From positions 2,684,501 to 2,748,500 of the forward strand of contig NZ_CP019388.1 of assembly GCF_001971725.1 (NCBI RefSeq): DNA of 64,000 nt, given 5' to 3'. Shown here one piece after another: positions 2,096-7,211 of the stretch; the first letter of the stretch is position 1, and the number at the start of each line of letters is the position of its first letter. The notes under the pieces were generated by a model that was not told the origin of the DNA, searched no databases, and was given only the letters and a program-made list of their open reading frames with translations. This stretch comes from Winogradskyella sp. J14-2. GTDB lineage: Bacteria > Bacteroidota > Bacteroidia > Flavobacteriales > Flavobacteriaceae. Both the position numbers and the translations under genes were made by a program.

Positions 2096-2788
2096 ATGAT
2101 AAATTTACTGTCAAATTTAAAGATTGCTGTACCAGACAAGATATTTATCAAAGATCCCGAATCGTCGGATTTAGGCAAGCGCATCATAGAGCACAGTATT
2201 TTGCTAATCGATGAGATAGGCTTTGATAGTTTTACATTCAAAAAACTTGGTGTTAAAATAGGCTCTAACGAAAGCTCAATTTACCGCTATTTTGAAAGCA
2301 AGCACAAATTACTTCTGTACTTAACCTCATGGTATTGGGCTTGGATAGAGTACCAAATGGTATTTACAACTCATAATGTTCCAAATGCAAAGGAACAACT
2401 ATTTAAAGCCATTGAAGTCATTACGCAGACCATAAAGGAAGACATTACAATTACACATATCAATGAGGTAATTTTAAATAGAATTATTATTAACGAATAC
2501 TCTAAATCTTATTTAACAAAAGAGGTAGATAGTGAAAACAAAGAAGGGTATTTTGTTGCTTATAAACGCGTGGTAAAGCGTTTAAGTGAAATTATAAATG
2601 CAGTAAATCCGCATTATGAGTTTCCTTCTAGTTTAGCAAGTACAATTGTAGAAGGTGCTTTGCATCAGCATTTTTTAAAGGCACATTTTAGATCTATTAC
2701 AGACTGTGGTAAAGATGTAACACCAACCGAATTTTTTCTCAACCTAACCTTAAACGTATTAAAGTCTACATCAAATGAATCAAAATAA
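2096..2788 (+). CDS. TetR/AcrR-family transcriptional regulator
   Basis: From the ATG at 2096 this is a 230-residue protein. An N-terminal TetR helix-turn-helix lies at about residues 25-75 (DSFTFKKLGVKIGSNESSIYRYFESKHKLL), followed by an all-helical ligand domain. In-frame TTG at 2075 would add seven residues but lies inside the promoter element, so ATG is preferred. The gene overlaps the next one by 14 bp and heads a four-gene export operon, so it most likely controls that operon in response to an exported compound. The ligand is unknown. Aromatic residues after the HTH (YLTSWYWAWIEYQM) are typical of the Bacteroidota subgroup found with such exporters, as I recall it. Confidence 0.85.
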   Translation: MINLLSNLKIAVPDKIFIKDPESSDLGKRIIEHSILLIDEIGFDSFTFKKLGVKIGSNESSIYRYFESKHKLLLYLTSWYWAWIEYQMVFTTHNVPNAKEQLFKAIEVITQTIKEDITITHINEVILNRIIINEYSKSYLTKEVDSENKEGYFVAYKRVVKRLSEIINAVNPHYEFPSSLASTIVEGALHQHFLKAHFRSITDCGKDVTPTEFFLNLTLNVLKSTSNESK

Positions 2789-4436
2789 ACCACTACTAAC
2801 ACCTTGGCAACGATTTGTTGGTATTTTAAGACTTGAAAAAAAGGATCTACTCCAAGTTATTTATTACGCTGTTTTTTCAGGGCTTATTAGTTTAACATTA
2901 CCTCTAGGAATTCAAGCCATAATAAATTTAATCCAAGGAGCTCAAGTTAGTACATCTTGGATTGTTCTTGTCGTTTTGGTAACATTGGGTGTTGTCTTTG
3001 TAGGTGTTTTGCAGCTTATGCAGATGCGAATTATAGAAACGGTTCAGCAACGTCTATTTATGAGAGCATCTTTTGAATTTACTTACCGCTTTCCTAAAAT
3101 TAGAATGAATGAACTCCGTAACTTTTATCCGCCAGAATTGGCCAATCGTTTTTTTGATGTACTAACGGTTCAGAAAAGTTTGGCAAAGTTATTACTCGAC
3201 GTACCAGCAGCCGTATTGCAAATTGTGTTTGCGTTAATACTATTATCCTTTTACCATCCGTTTTTTATTGCTTTTGGTATTCTTTTAATCATACTTATCT
3301 ATATCGTATTTAAGTTTACCATTCAAAAAGGTATGGAAACCAGTTTAAAAGAATCTAAGAAAAAATACATGGTGGCACACTGGATACAAGAAGTTGCCAG
3401 AGCGATTATAAGCTTTAAAATTTCGGGCAGAACATCCTTAGCCTTAGAAAAAAATGACAAACTGGTAGAGGGTTATTTAGAAGCAAGAGAAAGCCATTTT
3501 AAGATTTTGGTGATTCAGTTTATACAAATGATTGGTTTTAAGGTAATCGTTACGGCTGGTTTATTAATTATTGGCGGACTATTAGTACTGAATCAAGAAA
3601 TGAATATAGGTCAATTTGTCGCTGCCGAGATTATCATTTTATTGGTAATAGCCTCTGTTGAAAAGCTGATACTCGGATTAGAATCTTTCTACGACGTGCT
3701 AACATCGCTAGAAAAAATGGGCCAAGTAGTAGACAAAAAATTAGAATCACAAGAAGGAATTGAAGTAGATAAGGCTAAAAGTCTTAAGATAGAACTCGAT
3801 AAGGTAACTTATGAAGTACCCAACAGATCTGTCCCAATTTTAAATAACATATCAATGACTATAAACCCTTCGAGTAGAGTTTTGCTTCAAGGACCTAGTG
3901 GCTCTGGGAAATCCACATTACTTCGAATGATTTCGGGAATTATTGAACCCACAAAAGGCAGAATTTTTGTTAATGACGAGGCTATTCAGAATATTCATCT
4001 TAATAACTACAGATCTTGTCTTGGCTTATCTCTAGCAGATGAGACACCGTTTGAGGGTAGTATTAAAGATAATTTAACCTTAACAAATAAAAATATCACC
4101 GACGAAGAAGTAAATAAAGCAATTGAGATCGTTGGCTTAAGAGATTATCTTAAAGAAACAGAGAAAGGATTAGAAACTATTATATATCCCGAAGGCAAGC
4201 AGATGTCTTTTACAGTGGCCAAAAAATTAATTTTAGCAAGAGCTATCTTAAAAAAACCAAAGATCCTTGTTTTAGAAGAACCTCTTGAGCATTTTGAAAC
4301 AGCAGAAGCTCAAAGAATCATTAAGGCACTTACAGCTCCAGAAAACCCTTGGGCATTAATTGTTGCTAGTTTTAATAAAGATTGGGCAAGTGAGTGTACT
4401 GACATAATTACTTTAAACAGTGGTGAAATTATCTAA
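2775..4436 (+). CDS. ABC transporter, fused membrane and nucleotide-binding domains, with degenerate NBD
   Basis: The 553-residue protein has an N-terminal exporter-type membrane domain with about five or six hydrophobic segments (residues 25-300) and a C-terminal nucleotide-binding domain (about 335-553). Walker A is intact (GPSGSGKST, 373-381). Other motifs are not: the Q-loop region reads GLSLADE without glutamine (about 415-421); the LSGGQ signature is replaced by QMSFTV (about 476-481); Walker B ends in EE instead of DE (LVLEEP, 498-503); and the H-loop position has serine (VASFNKDW, S532). No C39 peptidase domain is present. With HlyD and TolC genes downstream it should form a trans-envelope type I exporter. 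ATP may be bound but hydrolysis is doubtful. The substrate is unknown. Confidence 0.85.
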   Translation: MNQNKPLLTPWQRFVGILRLEKKDLLQVIYYAVFSGLISLTLPLGIQAIINLIQGAQVSTSWIVLVVLVTLGVVFVGVLQLMQMRIIETVQQRLFMRASFEFTYRFPKIRMNELRNFYPPELANRFFDVLTVQKSLAKLLLDVPAAVLQIVFALILLSFYHPFFIAFGILLIILIYIVFKFTIQKGMETSLKESKKKYMVAHWIQEVARAIISFKISGRTSLALEKNDKLVEGYLEARESHFKILVIQFIQMIGFKVIVTAGLLIIGGLLVLNQEMNIGQFVAAEIIILLVIASVEKLILGLESFYDVLTSLEKMGQVVDKKLESQEGIEVDKAKSLKIELDKVTYEVPNRSVPILNNISMTINPSSRVLLQGPSGSGKSTLLRMISGIIEPTKGRIFVNDEAIQNIHLNNYRSCLGLSLADETPFEGSIKDNLTLTNKNITDEEVNKAIEIVGLRDYLKETEKGLETIIYPEGKQMSFTVAKKLILARAILKKPKILVLEEPLEHFETAEAQRIIKALTAPENPWALIVASFNKDWASECTDIITLNSGEII

Positions 4437-4448
4437 AAACAAATCGCA

Positions 4449-5804
4449 ATGTTGAATATATCTAAAAATCCATTAAATAAAACAGTAGATTTATCTACTT
4501 ACAACTCAAGTAAGCGTGTTTTTGATAAATATTATTATAAGTATTTTAACCGGTTTCTTGGTGCATTTGCTATTGTTGGTTTAATTATACTGTTTTTGCC
4601 ATGGACGCAAAATATTACCGGAAGAGGTAATGTTACCACCTTAACGCCAGGTCAAAGACCTCAAACCATTCAGTCTCAAATTCCAGGTAGAATAGAGAAG
4701 TGGTTTGTAAATGAGGGAGACTATGTAAAAAAGGGAGACACCATAATGCAAATTTCAGAAGTAAAAAGTGAATACTTCGATCCTAACTTAGTAGAACGAA
4801 CGGCTCAGCAGCGCGATGCAAAGGCATTTTCTGCCAAGTCCTATGAGGAAAAAGCACGCTCTGAAGATGTGCGAATAGTTGCGCTTTTAAACGAAAGAAA
4901 ACTAAAGCTAGAACAAGCTCAAAATAAGCTTTTACAAGCAAAGTACAAGGTAGAAGCAGATAGTATAGACCTCGAGGCGGCCAAAACTAATCTTAGAATT
5001 GCCCAAACCAAATACAATCGTGCAGATACCCTCTATCAAGACGGTTTTACTGCCTTAAAAAATGTAGAAGACGCGCGGTTAAAATTGCAAGAGACCCAAG
5101 CCAAATTAGTGTCGCAAAAAAATAAACTCTTAGAAAGTAAAACTGAAGTCATTAATGCCAGGCTCGAAATTAACAGAGTAACACAAGAATTTGCAGATAA
5201 GATATCTAAAGCCCAAAGCGAAAAATTCTCCGCAAAATCAAATCAGTTTAGTACCGAAGCAGAAGTACAAAAGCTCGAAAATCAATACTCAAACTACAAA
5301 ATTCGTAACAGTTTATTACATGTAACGGCACCATATGACGGTTTTATAAATAAAGCATTACGAGGTGGTGTTGGCGTTACATTTAAGGAAGGCGAAGAAT
5401 TAGTAGGTATAATACCAGATAATGTAGATTTAGCTGTAGAAACGTTTGTAGAGCCAATAGATTTACCATTAATTCATAAAGGTGAAAAAGTACGCGTACA
5501 ATTTGATGGCTGGCCTGCAATTGTTTTTAGCGGTTGGCCAAATGTATCCTACGGTACCTATGGTGCAGAGGTGGTTGCGGTAGAACGTTTTATTAGTGCC
5601 AACGGAAAGTTTAGAGTGCTGCTAAAACCAGATCCAGAAGACCATCCTTGGCCAAAAGATGTACGTGCAGGCTCTGGCGCATTTACAATGGCACTGTTAG
5701 ACGATGTTCCAATTTGGTTTGAGCTATGGAGACAGCTCAACGGTTTTCCACCAAATTACTATCAGCCACAAGATGGTAGTGCATCAACAAAAGCTAAGAA
5801 ATAA
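4449..5804 (+). CDS. HlyD-family periplasmic adaptor (membrane fusion protein)
   Basis: This 451-residue protein has one N-terminal membrane helix at about 36-53 (FLGAFAIVGLIILFLPW). A biotinyl-lipoyl-like segment follows (IPGRIEKWFVNEGDYVKKGD). A long coiled coil rich in K, E, Q and A spans about 115-285, then a second lipoyl half (HVTAPYDGFI) and a beta-barrel region to the C-terminus. It starts 12 bp after the ABC gene and ends 3 bp before the TolC gene, so the three are co-transcribed. It should bridge the inner-membrane ABC protein to the TolC channel. The coiled coil is long, as in type I secretion adaptors. Confidence 0.92.
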   Translation: MLNISKNPLNKTVDLSTYNSSKRVFDKYYYKYFNRFLGAFAIVGLIILFLPWTQNITGRGNVTTLTPGQRPQTIQSQIPGRIEKWFVNEGDYVKKGDTIMQISEVKSEYFDPNLVERTAQQRDAKAFSAKSYEEKARSEDVRIVALLNERKLKLEQAQNKLLQAKYKVEADSIDLEAAKTNLRIAQTKYNRADTLYQDGFTALKNVEDARLKLQETQAKLVSQKNKLLESKTEVINARLEINRVTQEFADKISKAQSEKFSAKSNQFSTEAEVQKLENQYSNYKIRNSLLHVTAPYDGFINKALRGGVGVTFKEGEELVGIIPDNVDLAVETFVEPIDLPLIHKGEKVRVQFDGWPAIVFSGWPNVSYGTYGAEVVAVERFISANGKFRVLLKPDPEDHPWPKDVRAGSGAFTMALLDDVPIWFELWRQLNGFPPNYYQPQDGSASTKAKK

Positions 5805-5807
5805 ACA

Positions 5808-7211
5808 ATGAAGTATTTAAGCACACTACTTTTTATTTTTATAAGCACATTAAGCTTTGCCCAAACAGATAGCATTAAAGAAGTTTTACGCTTTAATGAG
5901 TATTTAGGTTACGTTAAAAAGTTTCATCCTATTGTAAAGCAAGCAGAACTTGTAATAGACGAAAGTCAGGCAAAACTATTAAAATCACGTGGTGCTTTTG
6001 ACCCTAAGTTTGAGGTAGATTATGATCGCAAAAAGTTTAAAGGAATAGAATATTTTGATAGACTCAACGGGATGTTTAAAATACCAACGTGGTACGGCAT
6101 TGAACTCAAAGCAACATTCGAAGAAAATTCAGGAAATTTCTTAAACCCTGAAGGCTTTGTGCCAGAAGATGGTTTGTACTCCGCAGGTGTTAAAGTATCT
6201 GTAGCCCAAGGTCTTTTAATCAACGATAGAATGGCATCTTTAAAACAAGCCAAATTGTTTAGAGAGCAAGCCAAGGCAGATAGAGATATTTTTGTTAACA
6301 ATATTCTTTATGAAGCATCCTTAGCATATTTTAAATGGTTGCAAGCTTATAATGAGTTAAAGTTGTTTGAAAACTTTTTAACCAATGCAGAATTGAGATA
6401 CAGAGGTATAGAACGTGGTGCAGAAGTTGGCGAACGTGCCGATATTGATGTGGTTGAAGCTAGAATTGCAATTAACCAGCGTAGATTAAGTCTAGAACAA
6501 TCTAAAGTAAAGTTGATGAAAGCATCTTTAGAGCTTTCTACATTTCTATGGTTAGAGAATAACGTTCCTGTAGAATTACAACCAAACGTTATTCCAGATG
6601 TAGAGTCTGAGCCCATTGTAGATACGACGTTTAGCATCAATCAATTACGGGAAGATGAGGTTATTATAGAGACGCATCCAAAGTTAATTTCGTTAGACTA
6701 TAAATTGCAAAGTCTAGAAGTAGACACCAGACTTAAAGCCAATAAGCTCTTACCCAAAGTAGATGTAGAATATAACTTTATTACCGAAGTACCAGAAGTT
6801 GCGCGTTCTTTTAATACTGCCGAGTATAAAGGAGGTCTCAATGTAAGTTTTCCTTTGTTTTTACGCAAGGAGCGCGGAGATTTAAGATTGGCAAAACTAA
6901 AAATGCAAGACACGGAATTTGAGATTAATGCCGCCCGAGTTAATCTTCAAAATAAAATTAATGCCATTCGTCAAGAGTTAGATTCTTATAGTACACAAAA
7001 TGAGTTGGTTGCGCAAATGGTGACCGACTACTCAAAAATGTTAGAAGCAGAAGAACGTAAGTTTTTCTTAGGTGAAAGTTCTCTATTCTTGGTAAATTCT
7101 CGAGAATCTAAGCTTATTGATGGACAGCTAAAAGCTATTGAAGTACAATACAAGTTTTTTAGTACTAAAGCAAAACTGTTTAATAGCCTTGCGGTAAATC
7201 CAGATCTTTAG
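5808..7211 (+). CDS. TolC-family outer-membrane efflux channel
   Basis: The protein is 467 residues, about the usual TolC length, with a signal peptide (MKYLSTLLFIFISTLSFAQ). Two halves carry the typical long alpha-hairpins (about 130-270 and 340-450), including LRYRGIERGAEVGERADIDVVEARIA-type segments with the helix-turn of TolC proteins. It completes the TetR-ABC-HlyD-TolC operon. Beta-strands ending in aromatic residues fit an outer-membrane barrel. No terminator is obvious in the 58 bp before mpl. Confidence 0.9.
   Translation: MKYLSTLLFIFISTLSFAQTDSIKEVLRFNEYLGYVKKFHPIVKQAELVIDESQAKLLKSRGAFDPKFEVDYDRKKFKGIEYFDRLNGMFKIPTWYGIELKATFEENSGNFLNPEGFVPEDGLYSAGVKVSVAQGLLINDRMASLKQAKLFREQAKADRDIFVNNILYEASLAYFKWLQAYNELKLFENFLTNAELRYRGIERGAEVGERADIDVVEARIAINQRRLSLEQSKVKLMKASLELSTFLWLENNVPVELQPNVIPDVESEPIVDTTFSINQLREDEVIIETHPKLISLDYKLQSLEVDTRLKANKLLPKVDVEYNFITEVPEVARSFNTAEYKGGLNVSFPLFLRKERGDLRLAKLKMQDTEFEINAARVNLQNKINAIRQELDSYSTQNELVAQMVTDYSKMLEAEERKFFLGESSLFLVNSRESKLIDGQLKAIEVQYKFFSTKAKLFNSLAVNPDL

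Follow-up and report, generated by a model that had tools for sequence, protein, structure and literature searches.

The operon analysed here occupies positions 2,096 to 7,211 of a 64,000-nucleotide stretch of Winogradskyella sp. J14-2 (contig NZ_CP019388.1, positions 2,684,501 to 2,748,500; hereafter the window), and its sequence points to a tripartite exporter that probably no longer runs on ATP hydrolysis and is perhaps driven by protons, like SbmA. Four genes lie nearly end to end on the + strand and encode a TetR-family regulator, an ATP-binding cassette (ABC) half-exporter, a HlyD-type periplasmic adaptor and a TolC-type outer-membrane channel. An earlier note on this DNA had offered a different transport cycle as one option, and we judge that option probable from the family-wide loss of the residues for ATP sandwiching and hydrolysis. 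Export is very likely not powered by ATP hydrolysis at the exporter's own nucleotide-binding domain (NBD). More tentatively, and by analogy with SbmA, the membrane domain might cycle on the proton-motive force, Glu285 of transmembrane helix 6 (TM6) being the leading candidate for a coupling residue. In the proposed scheme, a TetR-controlled ABC-type membrane domain, presumably a homodimer, would form with HlyD and TolC a single passage that leads from the inner membrane out of the cell. Where the degenerate NBD remains, it would be a docked pseudo-ATPase, acting as a structural clamp or as a nucleotide-sensing gate; its P-loop and its coupling loop have stayed conserved. The TetR control suggests a small-molecule substrate.

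The motifs of the ABC protein (553 residues; 2775..4436, +) were read by alignment against canonical ABC proteins. Its Walker A motif GPSGSGKST (residues 373–381; 3891..3917, +) is intact, and the catalytic-glutamate position is retained as Glu502. Val348 stands in place of the A-loop aromatic (3816..3818, +), and Ala421 in place of the glutamine in the Q-loop region LADETPFEG (residues 420–428; 4032..4058, +). The signature region is degenerate (QMSFTVAK, residues 476–483; 4200..4223, +), with MSFTV for LSGGQ. Moreover, the Walker B motif KILVLEEP (residues 496–503; 4260..4283, +) has Glu501 for aspartate, the D-loop SALD has become EHFE, and the degenerate H-loop LIVASFNK (residues 528–535; 4356..4379, +) carries Phe533 at the histidine position. 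The alignment thus agrees with the earlier note, which had described an intact Walker A and replacement of the Q-loop glutamine, the LSGGQ signature, the Walker B aspartate and the H-loop histidine, and it adds the A-loop aromatic and the D-loop to the losses. However, the note had taken Ser532 as the replacement of the H-loop histidine; the histidine aligns with Phe533, and Ser532 is the preceding residue. An ATP site consists of the Walker motifs of one subunit and the signature of the other, as described in the relevant part of PMC7756269. Because the window protein has lost both half-sites, no homodimer or mixed dimer of it would give a consensus ATP site.

Pfam assigns ABC_membrane and ABC_tran (1.8e-22) to the protein, which has the NBD fold and the P-loop of the ABC superfamily. 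Its AlphaFold2 model (mean predicted local distance difference test score 75, mostly 80–90 in the NBD) shows a complete ABC fold. The modelled NBD (residues 333–553) superposes on the ComA NBD with a root-mean-square deviation of 1.6 over 218 residues. In VIA-align, numerous ABC exporters match the full-length model at Z 27–28, with HlyB (8dck) at Z 27.0 and PCAT1 (8voz) at Z 26.8. A Foldseek search returned the same sort of ABC exporters; no SbmA was among the matches listed by either program, which is uninformative either way. The type I secretion and PCAT exporters (HlyB, LssB, PrtD, PCAT1) share this fold and the operon with HlyD and TolC, whereas the window protein lacks the functional ATPase motifs of type I secretion (signature, Walker B aspartate and H-loop histidine), and it scores 200.2 bits with TIGR03375 against a curated cut-off of 693.1.

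To place the motif changes in their family, homologues were surveyed in overlapping genome samples. Full-length homologues were detected in 148 of the 249 Flavobacteriaceae genomes sampled, its own included (E ≤ 1e-60), in 97 of 395 genomes across the phylum and in 101 of 296 genomes of the order (both E ≤ 1e-45), and a membrane-domain profile finds matches in 197 of 395 genomes at class level (E ≤ 1e-30). The closest named homologues of the window protein come from Winogradskyella, with up to 95% identity, and no description of the family was found in open-licence PMC papers. The 239 aligned Bacteroidota rows comprise the window protein, the best-scoring loci and diversity picks and are not a random sample; a duplicate of the query, the other ABC proteins of its genome (loci L002–L010) and L234 and L236 were left out, and six rows are protein-identical to another. 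They divide into 206 degenerate members, 19 motor-type members, defined as keeping the Walker A lysine and an Asp or Glu at Walker B, nine members without an NBD and five fusions of the membrane domain with HlyD.

Among the degenerate members, the Walker A lysine (Lys379) is kept in 199 and lost in 7, and the catalytic-glutamate position is Asp or Glu in 186. An exact LSGGQ occurs in none of the 206 and in none of the 19 motor-type rows, compared with 16 of 18 canonical type I exporters from Bacteroidota. A Walker B-like DE, sought with an alignment-independent regular expression, is present in 2 of 206 degenerate versus 19 of 19 motor-type rows, and the A-loop aromatic in 64 of 206 versus 18 of 19; 13 of the motor-type rows also have the H-loop histidine. 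Whole-protein counts for LS.GQ and the H-loop in sphingomonad and canonical proteins partly matched TM6 and were not used. The 121 rows nearest to the window protein, nearly all from Flavobacteriaceae, are all degenerate. In these, Lys379 is invariant (121), the signature-glycine position 479 is Phe, Tyr or His in 116, position 480 is Thr or Ser in 119 and Ser532 is present in 119, while the Walker B aspartate position is Lys, Asn, Arg or Val in 22. A single decayed copy was considered as an explanation and set aside, since the homologues share the same motif changes. Collectively, as judged from the alignment, the replacements are constrained rather than random decay, and a motif loss shared by 206 of 239 homologues lies far beyond chance. 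A distinct subfamily with conserved replacements, which the earlier note had envisaged, is supported.

The earlier note had also reasoned that homologues in the same synteny with canonical motifs would mark the window protein as simply mutated. Such relatives exist in part: there are 19 distant motor-type members, but none has an exact LSGGQ, and all of the near rows are degenerate. Of these, 18 fall in a deep group, and L249 alone branches close to where the degenerate clade begins. The motor-type members at L186–L190 and L211–L219 lack the Q-loop glutamine at the aligned position, and variant signatures such as LSTGQ and LPxGM are found; since even motor-type relatives show these departures, drift in the family may predate the loss of the motor. 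At 94 of the 100 loci that were fetched, HlyD and TolC matches lie within the same stretch. Among the remaining six, L162, L234 and L236 end at contig ends, and L160, L163 and L188 do not. L160 and L163 are motor-type and show no HlyD or TolC match in the fetched stretch, although no contig ends there.

Further evidence comes from relatives that have no NBD. Nine proteins of 332–339 residues stop just past TM6, and the HlyD gene begins −8 to +66 bp further on, followed by TolC; in the two scanned with Pfam (L151 and L155), ABC_membrane is the sole match at E ≤ 0.01. In addition, five members of one small-genome genus carry the membrane domain and HlyD in one protein of 732–758 residues, again followed by TolC. 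For the fusion at L157, Pfam finds HlyD and misses ABC_membrane, and the membrane domain was recognized by BLAST (37% identity, E 5e-57) and by the profile. L234 and L236 had been taken as membrane-domain-only candidates and were dropped, as both are cut by contig ends. In a membrane-domain tree (132 rows, L225 left out; a quick search with support from the Shimodaira–Hasegawa-like approximate likelihood ratio test, SH-aLRT, only), the nine form one clade (support 99), and its sister L167 carries a degenerate NBD (98). A second clade (100) holds the fusions, four of five of which are in the tree, and its sister L207 has lost the Walker A lysine (99). On this tree, two or more separate losses of the NBD took place, all of them among degenerate forms. 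With two clades that do without the domain, the family as a whole cannot share hydrolysis at its own NBD as an energy source.

Two other accounts of the missing NBD were weighed and set aside. At the membrane-domain-only loci, the gap to HlyD leaves too little room for a frameshift to conceal an NBD. A separately encoded NBD in the neighbourhood was sought with seven NBD queries at the 14 NBD-less loci, which yielded one ABC ATPase gene, 4.2 kb downstream at L151. Furthermore, 14 genomes were searched, namely those of the nine and five of the fusion genus (four from the fusion loci and G855; the genome of L225, G737, was left out). Each has one family membrane domain (14 of 14), with an additional marginal 20-bit match in G1161, and a search with the L167 NBD found no family-like NBD elsewhere in them, other ABC proteins scoring about 101 bits or less. 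The same query scores the operon's own NBD at 127 bits in G613, 151 in G317 and 529 in G429; the margin is thin, with an unrelated ABC protein of G429 at 116 bits, near the 127 of G613.

To examine constraint on the remaining parts, ratios of nonsynonymous to synonymous substitution rates (dN/dS) were estimated. Between the window and close relatives (four of five pairs usable), they are 0.013–0.030 for the membrane domain, 0.045–0.093 for the NBD, 0.026–0.090 for HlyD and 0.019–0.071 for TolC. Pairs of membrane-domain-only proteins give 0.048–0.114 (three of five usable, the others saturated), and the membrane domains of the fusions give 0.045–0.072. In the pairs that can be measured, the membrane domain, NBD, HlyD and TolC are, by these estimates, under purifying selection. 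In matched bins of membrane-domain identity, NBD identity lags behind that of the membrane domain by 0.15 to 0.25 in degenerate members and by 0.01 to 0.17 in motor-type members. In the intracellular loop expected to contact the NBD, Trp203 and Glu206 are conserved in 100% and 95% of the 197 NBD-bearing degenerate members and in 78% and 67% of motor-type members. Either residue is present in 44% of the nine membrane-domain-only rows, and they are not the majority residues in the fusions. The conservation of intracellular loop 2 (ICL2) in the nine is 0.493, versus 0.602 (standard deviation 0.033) in matched controls, none of 300 being as low; ICL1 is not relaxed. A coupling loop that is conserved with an NBD and relaxed without one suggests that the degenerate NBD still docks and that its loss frees the loop.

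Within the membrane domain (residues 1–325; 2775..3749, +), the portion also retained by the NBD-less relatives, the TM6 residue Glu285 (codon 3627..3629, +) is Glu in 237 of 239 rows, with Asp in L182 and Gln in L219. An equivalent glutamate is present in all eight sphingomonad copies described below and in none of the 18 canonical type I exporters. Lys134 and Lys197 occur in 73 of 73 family rows of the alignment with canonical exporters, Asp307 in 71 of 73, and position 241 is His or Tyr in all. Glu285 and further residues are hallmarks of the family. Because motor-bearing relatives carry Glu285 as well, it is taken here as a candidate coupling residue that was already in place, comparable to the incomplete glutamate ladder that has been reported in YddA, and not as proof.

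Plasmid-borne copies were analysed separately from the 239 rows, comprising four plasmid proteins from Bacteroidota and eight from sphingomonads. The plasmid members of Persicobacter, Aureibacter and Riemerella are degenerate. Plasmid members also occur in Sphingomonadales (Novosphingobium, Sphingobium, Sphingomonas, Croceicoccus and Sphingopyxis), and in these the Walker A (P-loop), Walker B and H-loop motifs are all lost. HlyD and TolC stand beside seven of the eight fetched sphingomonad copies; the Sphingopyxis copy (L280) is incomplete, and a transposase gene follows it. With the 18 canonical exporters as outgroup, the family forms a clade (support 99) in a quick tree of 91 rows (SH-aLRT only), in which several of the 18 are near-identical. 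The 18 lie apart from this clade, with motifs of the canonical kind and without Glu at position 285. The sphingomonad copies diverge outside both the motor-bearing and the motorless groups of Bacteroidota, which suggests that their motor loss was independent. Because the trees are quick and long branches were flagged, this placement and the independent loss are likely rather than firm.

Several other explanations of a conserved but altered NBD were weighed. ATP could gate the exporter rather than fuel it, with nucleotide on the retained P-loop opening or closing a conduit driven by the substrate gradient, without turnover. We regard this as rather unlikely. It accords with the conservation of Lys379 in the degenerate and the near rows, the constrained aromatic or histidine at 479 and Thr or Ser at 480, the intact NBD fold of the model and the conserved Trp203 and Glu206; however, the A-loop aromatic is kept in just 64 of 206 degenerate members, and the 7 members without the Walker A lysine and the 14 without an NBD retain HlyD and TolC nonetheless. 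The altered NBD might instead hydrolyse ATP slowly through Glu501 and Glu502 and the unusual signature, enough for a slow exporter. The intact Walker A and the acidic catalytic-glutamate position in 186 of 206 degenerate members speak for this residual activity, which we still find improbable in view of the two clades that have no NBD and of the near rows, where Lys, Asn, Arg or Val replaces the Walker B aspartate in 22 of 121 and Phe, Tyr or His the signature glycine in 116 of 121, and where His is not among the residues listed at position 533.

The exporter might also pair with a canonical ABC half-transporter or borrow an NBD in trans, and the earlier note had raised pairing with another ABC protein. 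Asymmetric exporters of the TmrAB kind do work with one degenerate site, as the relevant parts of PMC7756269 and PMC8277102 describe. TmrAB, TM287/288 and TAP likewise depart from consensus at Walker B, signature and H-loop, but they keep one consensus site per pair, whereas the window protein has lost both half-sites, so that no pairing would yield one. No close full-length paralogue was found in its own genome (3.35 Mb, one contig), the next match having 24% identity, and the 14 NBD-less genomes each contain one family membrane domain and no family-like NBD in a search that could miss a very divergent one. Pairing is therefore very unlikely. Finally, the exporter could be decaying and without function, as the faster evolution of the NBD relative to the membrane domain, the loss of some P-loops and one in-frame stop in 3 of the 148 Flavobacteriaceae matches would allow. 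With purifying selection on all four parts in usable pairs, full-length homologues in 148 of 249 genomes and HlyD and TolC at 94 of 100 loci, such pseudogenisation is improbable in the extreme.

The favoured reading, a tripartite exporter that is not powered by ATP hydrolysis and is perhaps proton-driven, faces difficulties of its own, and the following points count against it together with the in-frame stops. Nucleotide may still matter in most members, because Lys379 is so widely kept and the NBD dN/dS is low, and the retained Glu502 means that slow hydrolysis could still occur in the window protein. Motor-bearing relatives already carry Glu285, so this residue did not arise with the loss of the motor and could have a different function. 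Relaxation in the membrane-domain-only rows, relative to the controls, extends beyond ICL2 to TM4 and, to a lesser degree, to TM5 and TM6. The NBD-less genomes are few, and a highly divergent exiled NBD could escape the search, since the operon's own NBD of G1143 scores 85 bits. Moreover, no assay of a family member was found in open-licence PMC papers.

The other genes of the operon complete the machine. The first encodes the TetR-family regulator (2096..2788, +; Pfam TetR_N 2.1e-07; alternative TTG start at 2075) and overlaps the ABC gene by 14 bp. After a gap of 12 bp, the HlyD-type adaptor follows (451 residues; 4449..5804, +; Pfam HlyD_3 4.7e-11; TIGR01843 1.6e-28, under its curated cut-off), and 3 bp further on lies the TolC-type channel (467 residues; 5808..7211, +; Pfam OEP 3.4e-38). 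The gene layout and the Pfam matches agree with the description, already given in the earlier note, of an intact and tightly linked membrane domain, adaptor and channel.

Some neighbouring genes and domains recur among the homologous loci. At 15 of 251 loci (L143–L145, L155, L156, L183, L192, L195, L196, L198, L202, L231, L242, L243 and L250), a small protein of 96–151 residues is encoded on the same strand upstream, ending 59–305 bp ahead of the ABC gene; its N-terminal part has a hydrophobic stretch, and its C terminus ends in a PPP tail. As a control, six other tripeptides gave no case at that place, and PPE, which overlaps PPP, gave five. No Pfam (six proteins scanned) or NCBIfam (five scanned) match below E 0.03 was found for these proteins, and the first 12 kb of the window did not yield one; they may be accessory proteins or substrates. 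They tend to occur where no TetR gene was found nearby (L143–L145, L155, L156 and L231), while L202, L243 and L250 have both. In L179, L182 and L186, genes for a SulP-type permease and a carbonic anhydrase (named from sequence) immediately precede the operon; L183, L226 and L227 are further loci noted in this context. A gene for a DUF2309 protein, presumably the inorganic-carbon transporter DabA, lies directly upstream in Sphingobium L255. From these neighbours, a link of the operon to inorganic carbon is possible. The relatives L165, L167, L169, L187 and L188 are longer (720–832 residues) and are extended at the N terminus, the site of a C39 or C39-like domain in type I exporters; no C39 family of Pfam was matched in these extensions (E ≤ 0.01).

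It is an old and contested question whether ions can drive the membrane domain of an ABC exporter in the absence of its ATPase. The evidence considered here comes from engineered LmrA and MsbA truncations and from SbmA. According to the relevant part of PMC2704374, transport on the proton-motive force was reported for the LmrA membrane domain, with Glu314 of TM6 needed for the dependence on ΔpH, and PMC4979069 reports, in the part concerned, that the membrane domain of MsbA alone transports on the proton-motive force. These are laboratory truncations, whereas the NBD-less relatives described here are natural; Glu285 and Glu314 are likened as TM6 glutamates, not by aligned position. SbmA/BacA (SLiPT) has an ABC-exporter membrane fold without an NBD and is proton-driven through conserved glutamates, and its authors consider it a descendant of a full-length ABC transporter, as stated in the relevant part of PMC13316013. 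In contrast to the family here, which stands with HlyD and TolC and whose NBD-less form has 332–339 residues, SbmA works as an importer and has an additional TM0 domain. The family also differs in that intermediates with degenerate NBDs survive in many genomes. Of the SLiPT traits, absence of the NBD is seen in the nine membrane-domain-only and five fusion relatives and not in the window protein; the SbmA/BacA Pfam assignment is absent (ABC_membrane and ABC_tran in the window protein, ABC_membrane in L151 and L155); and the coupling helices are kept in the window protein, with ICL2 relaxed, not deleted, in the membrane-domain-only relatives. In place of a glutamate ladder as in SbmA, a single near-invariant glutamate, that of TM6, was found in the family.

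The family is a natural experiment with intermediates in which both membranes are spanned, and its natural orthologues make the question of ion drive testable. The steps of such a transition appear to be extant: a working-looking NBD, a dead NBD with a P-loop, a dead NBD without one, no NBD, and fusion to HlyD. An ATP-driven type I exporter may thus, as a tentative proposal, have repeatedly turned ion-driven inside an intact HlyD–TolC machine, a fourth energy class of tripartite pumps beside ABC, RND and MFS. If this is true, the membrane domains of ABC exporters would carry their own ion coupling, and the NBD would be an add-on. Furthermore, Bacteroidota genes annotated as 'ABC transporter ATP-binding protein', such as the plasmid copies, may use ATP in some way other than the usual one, or not at all.

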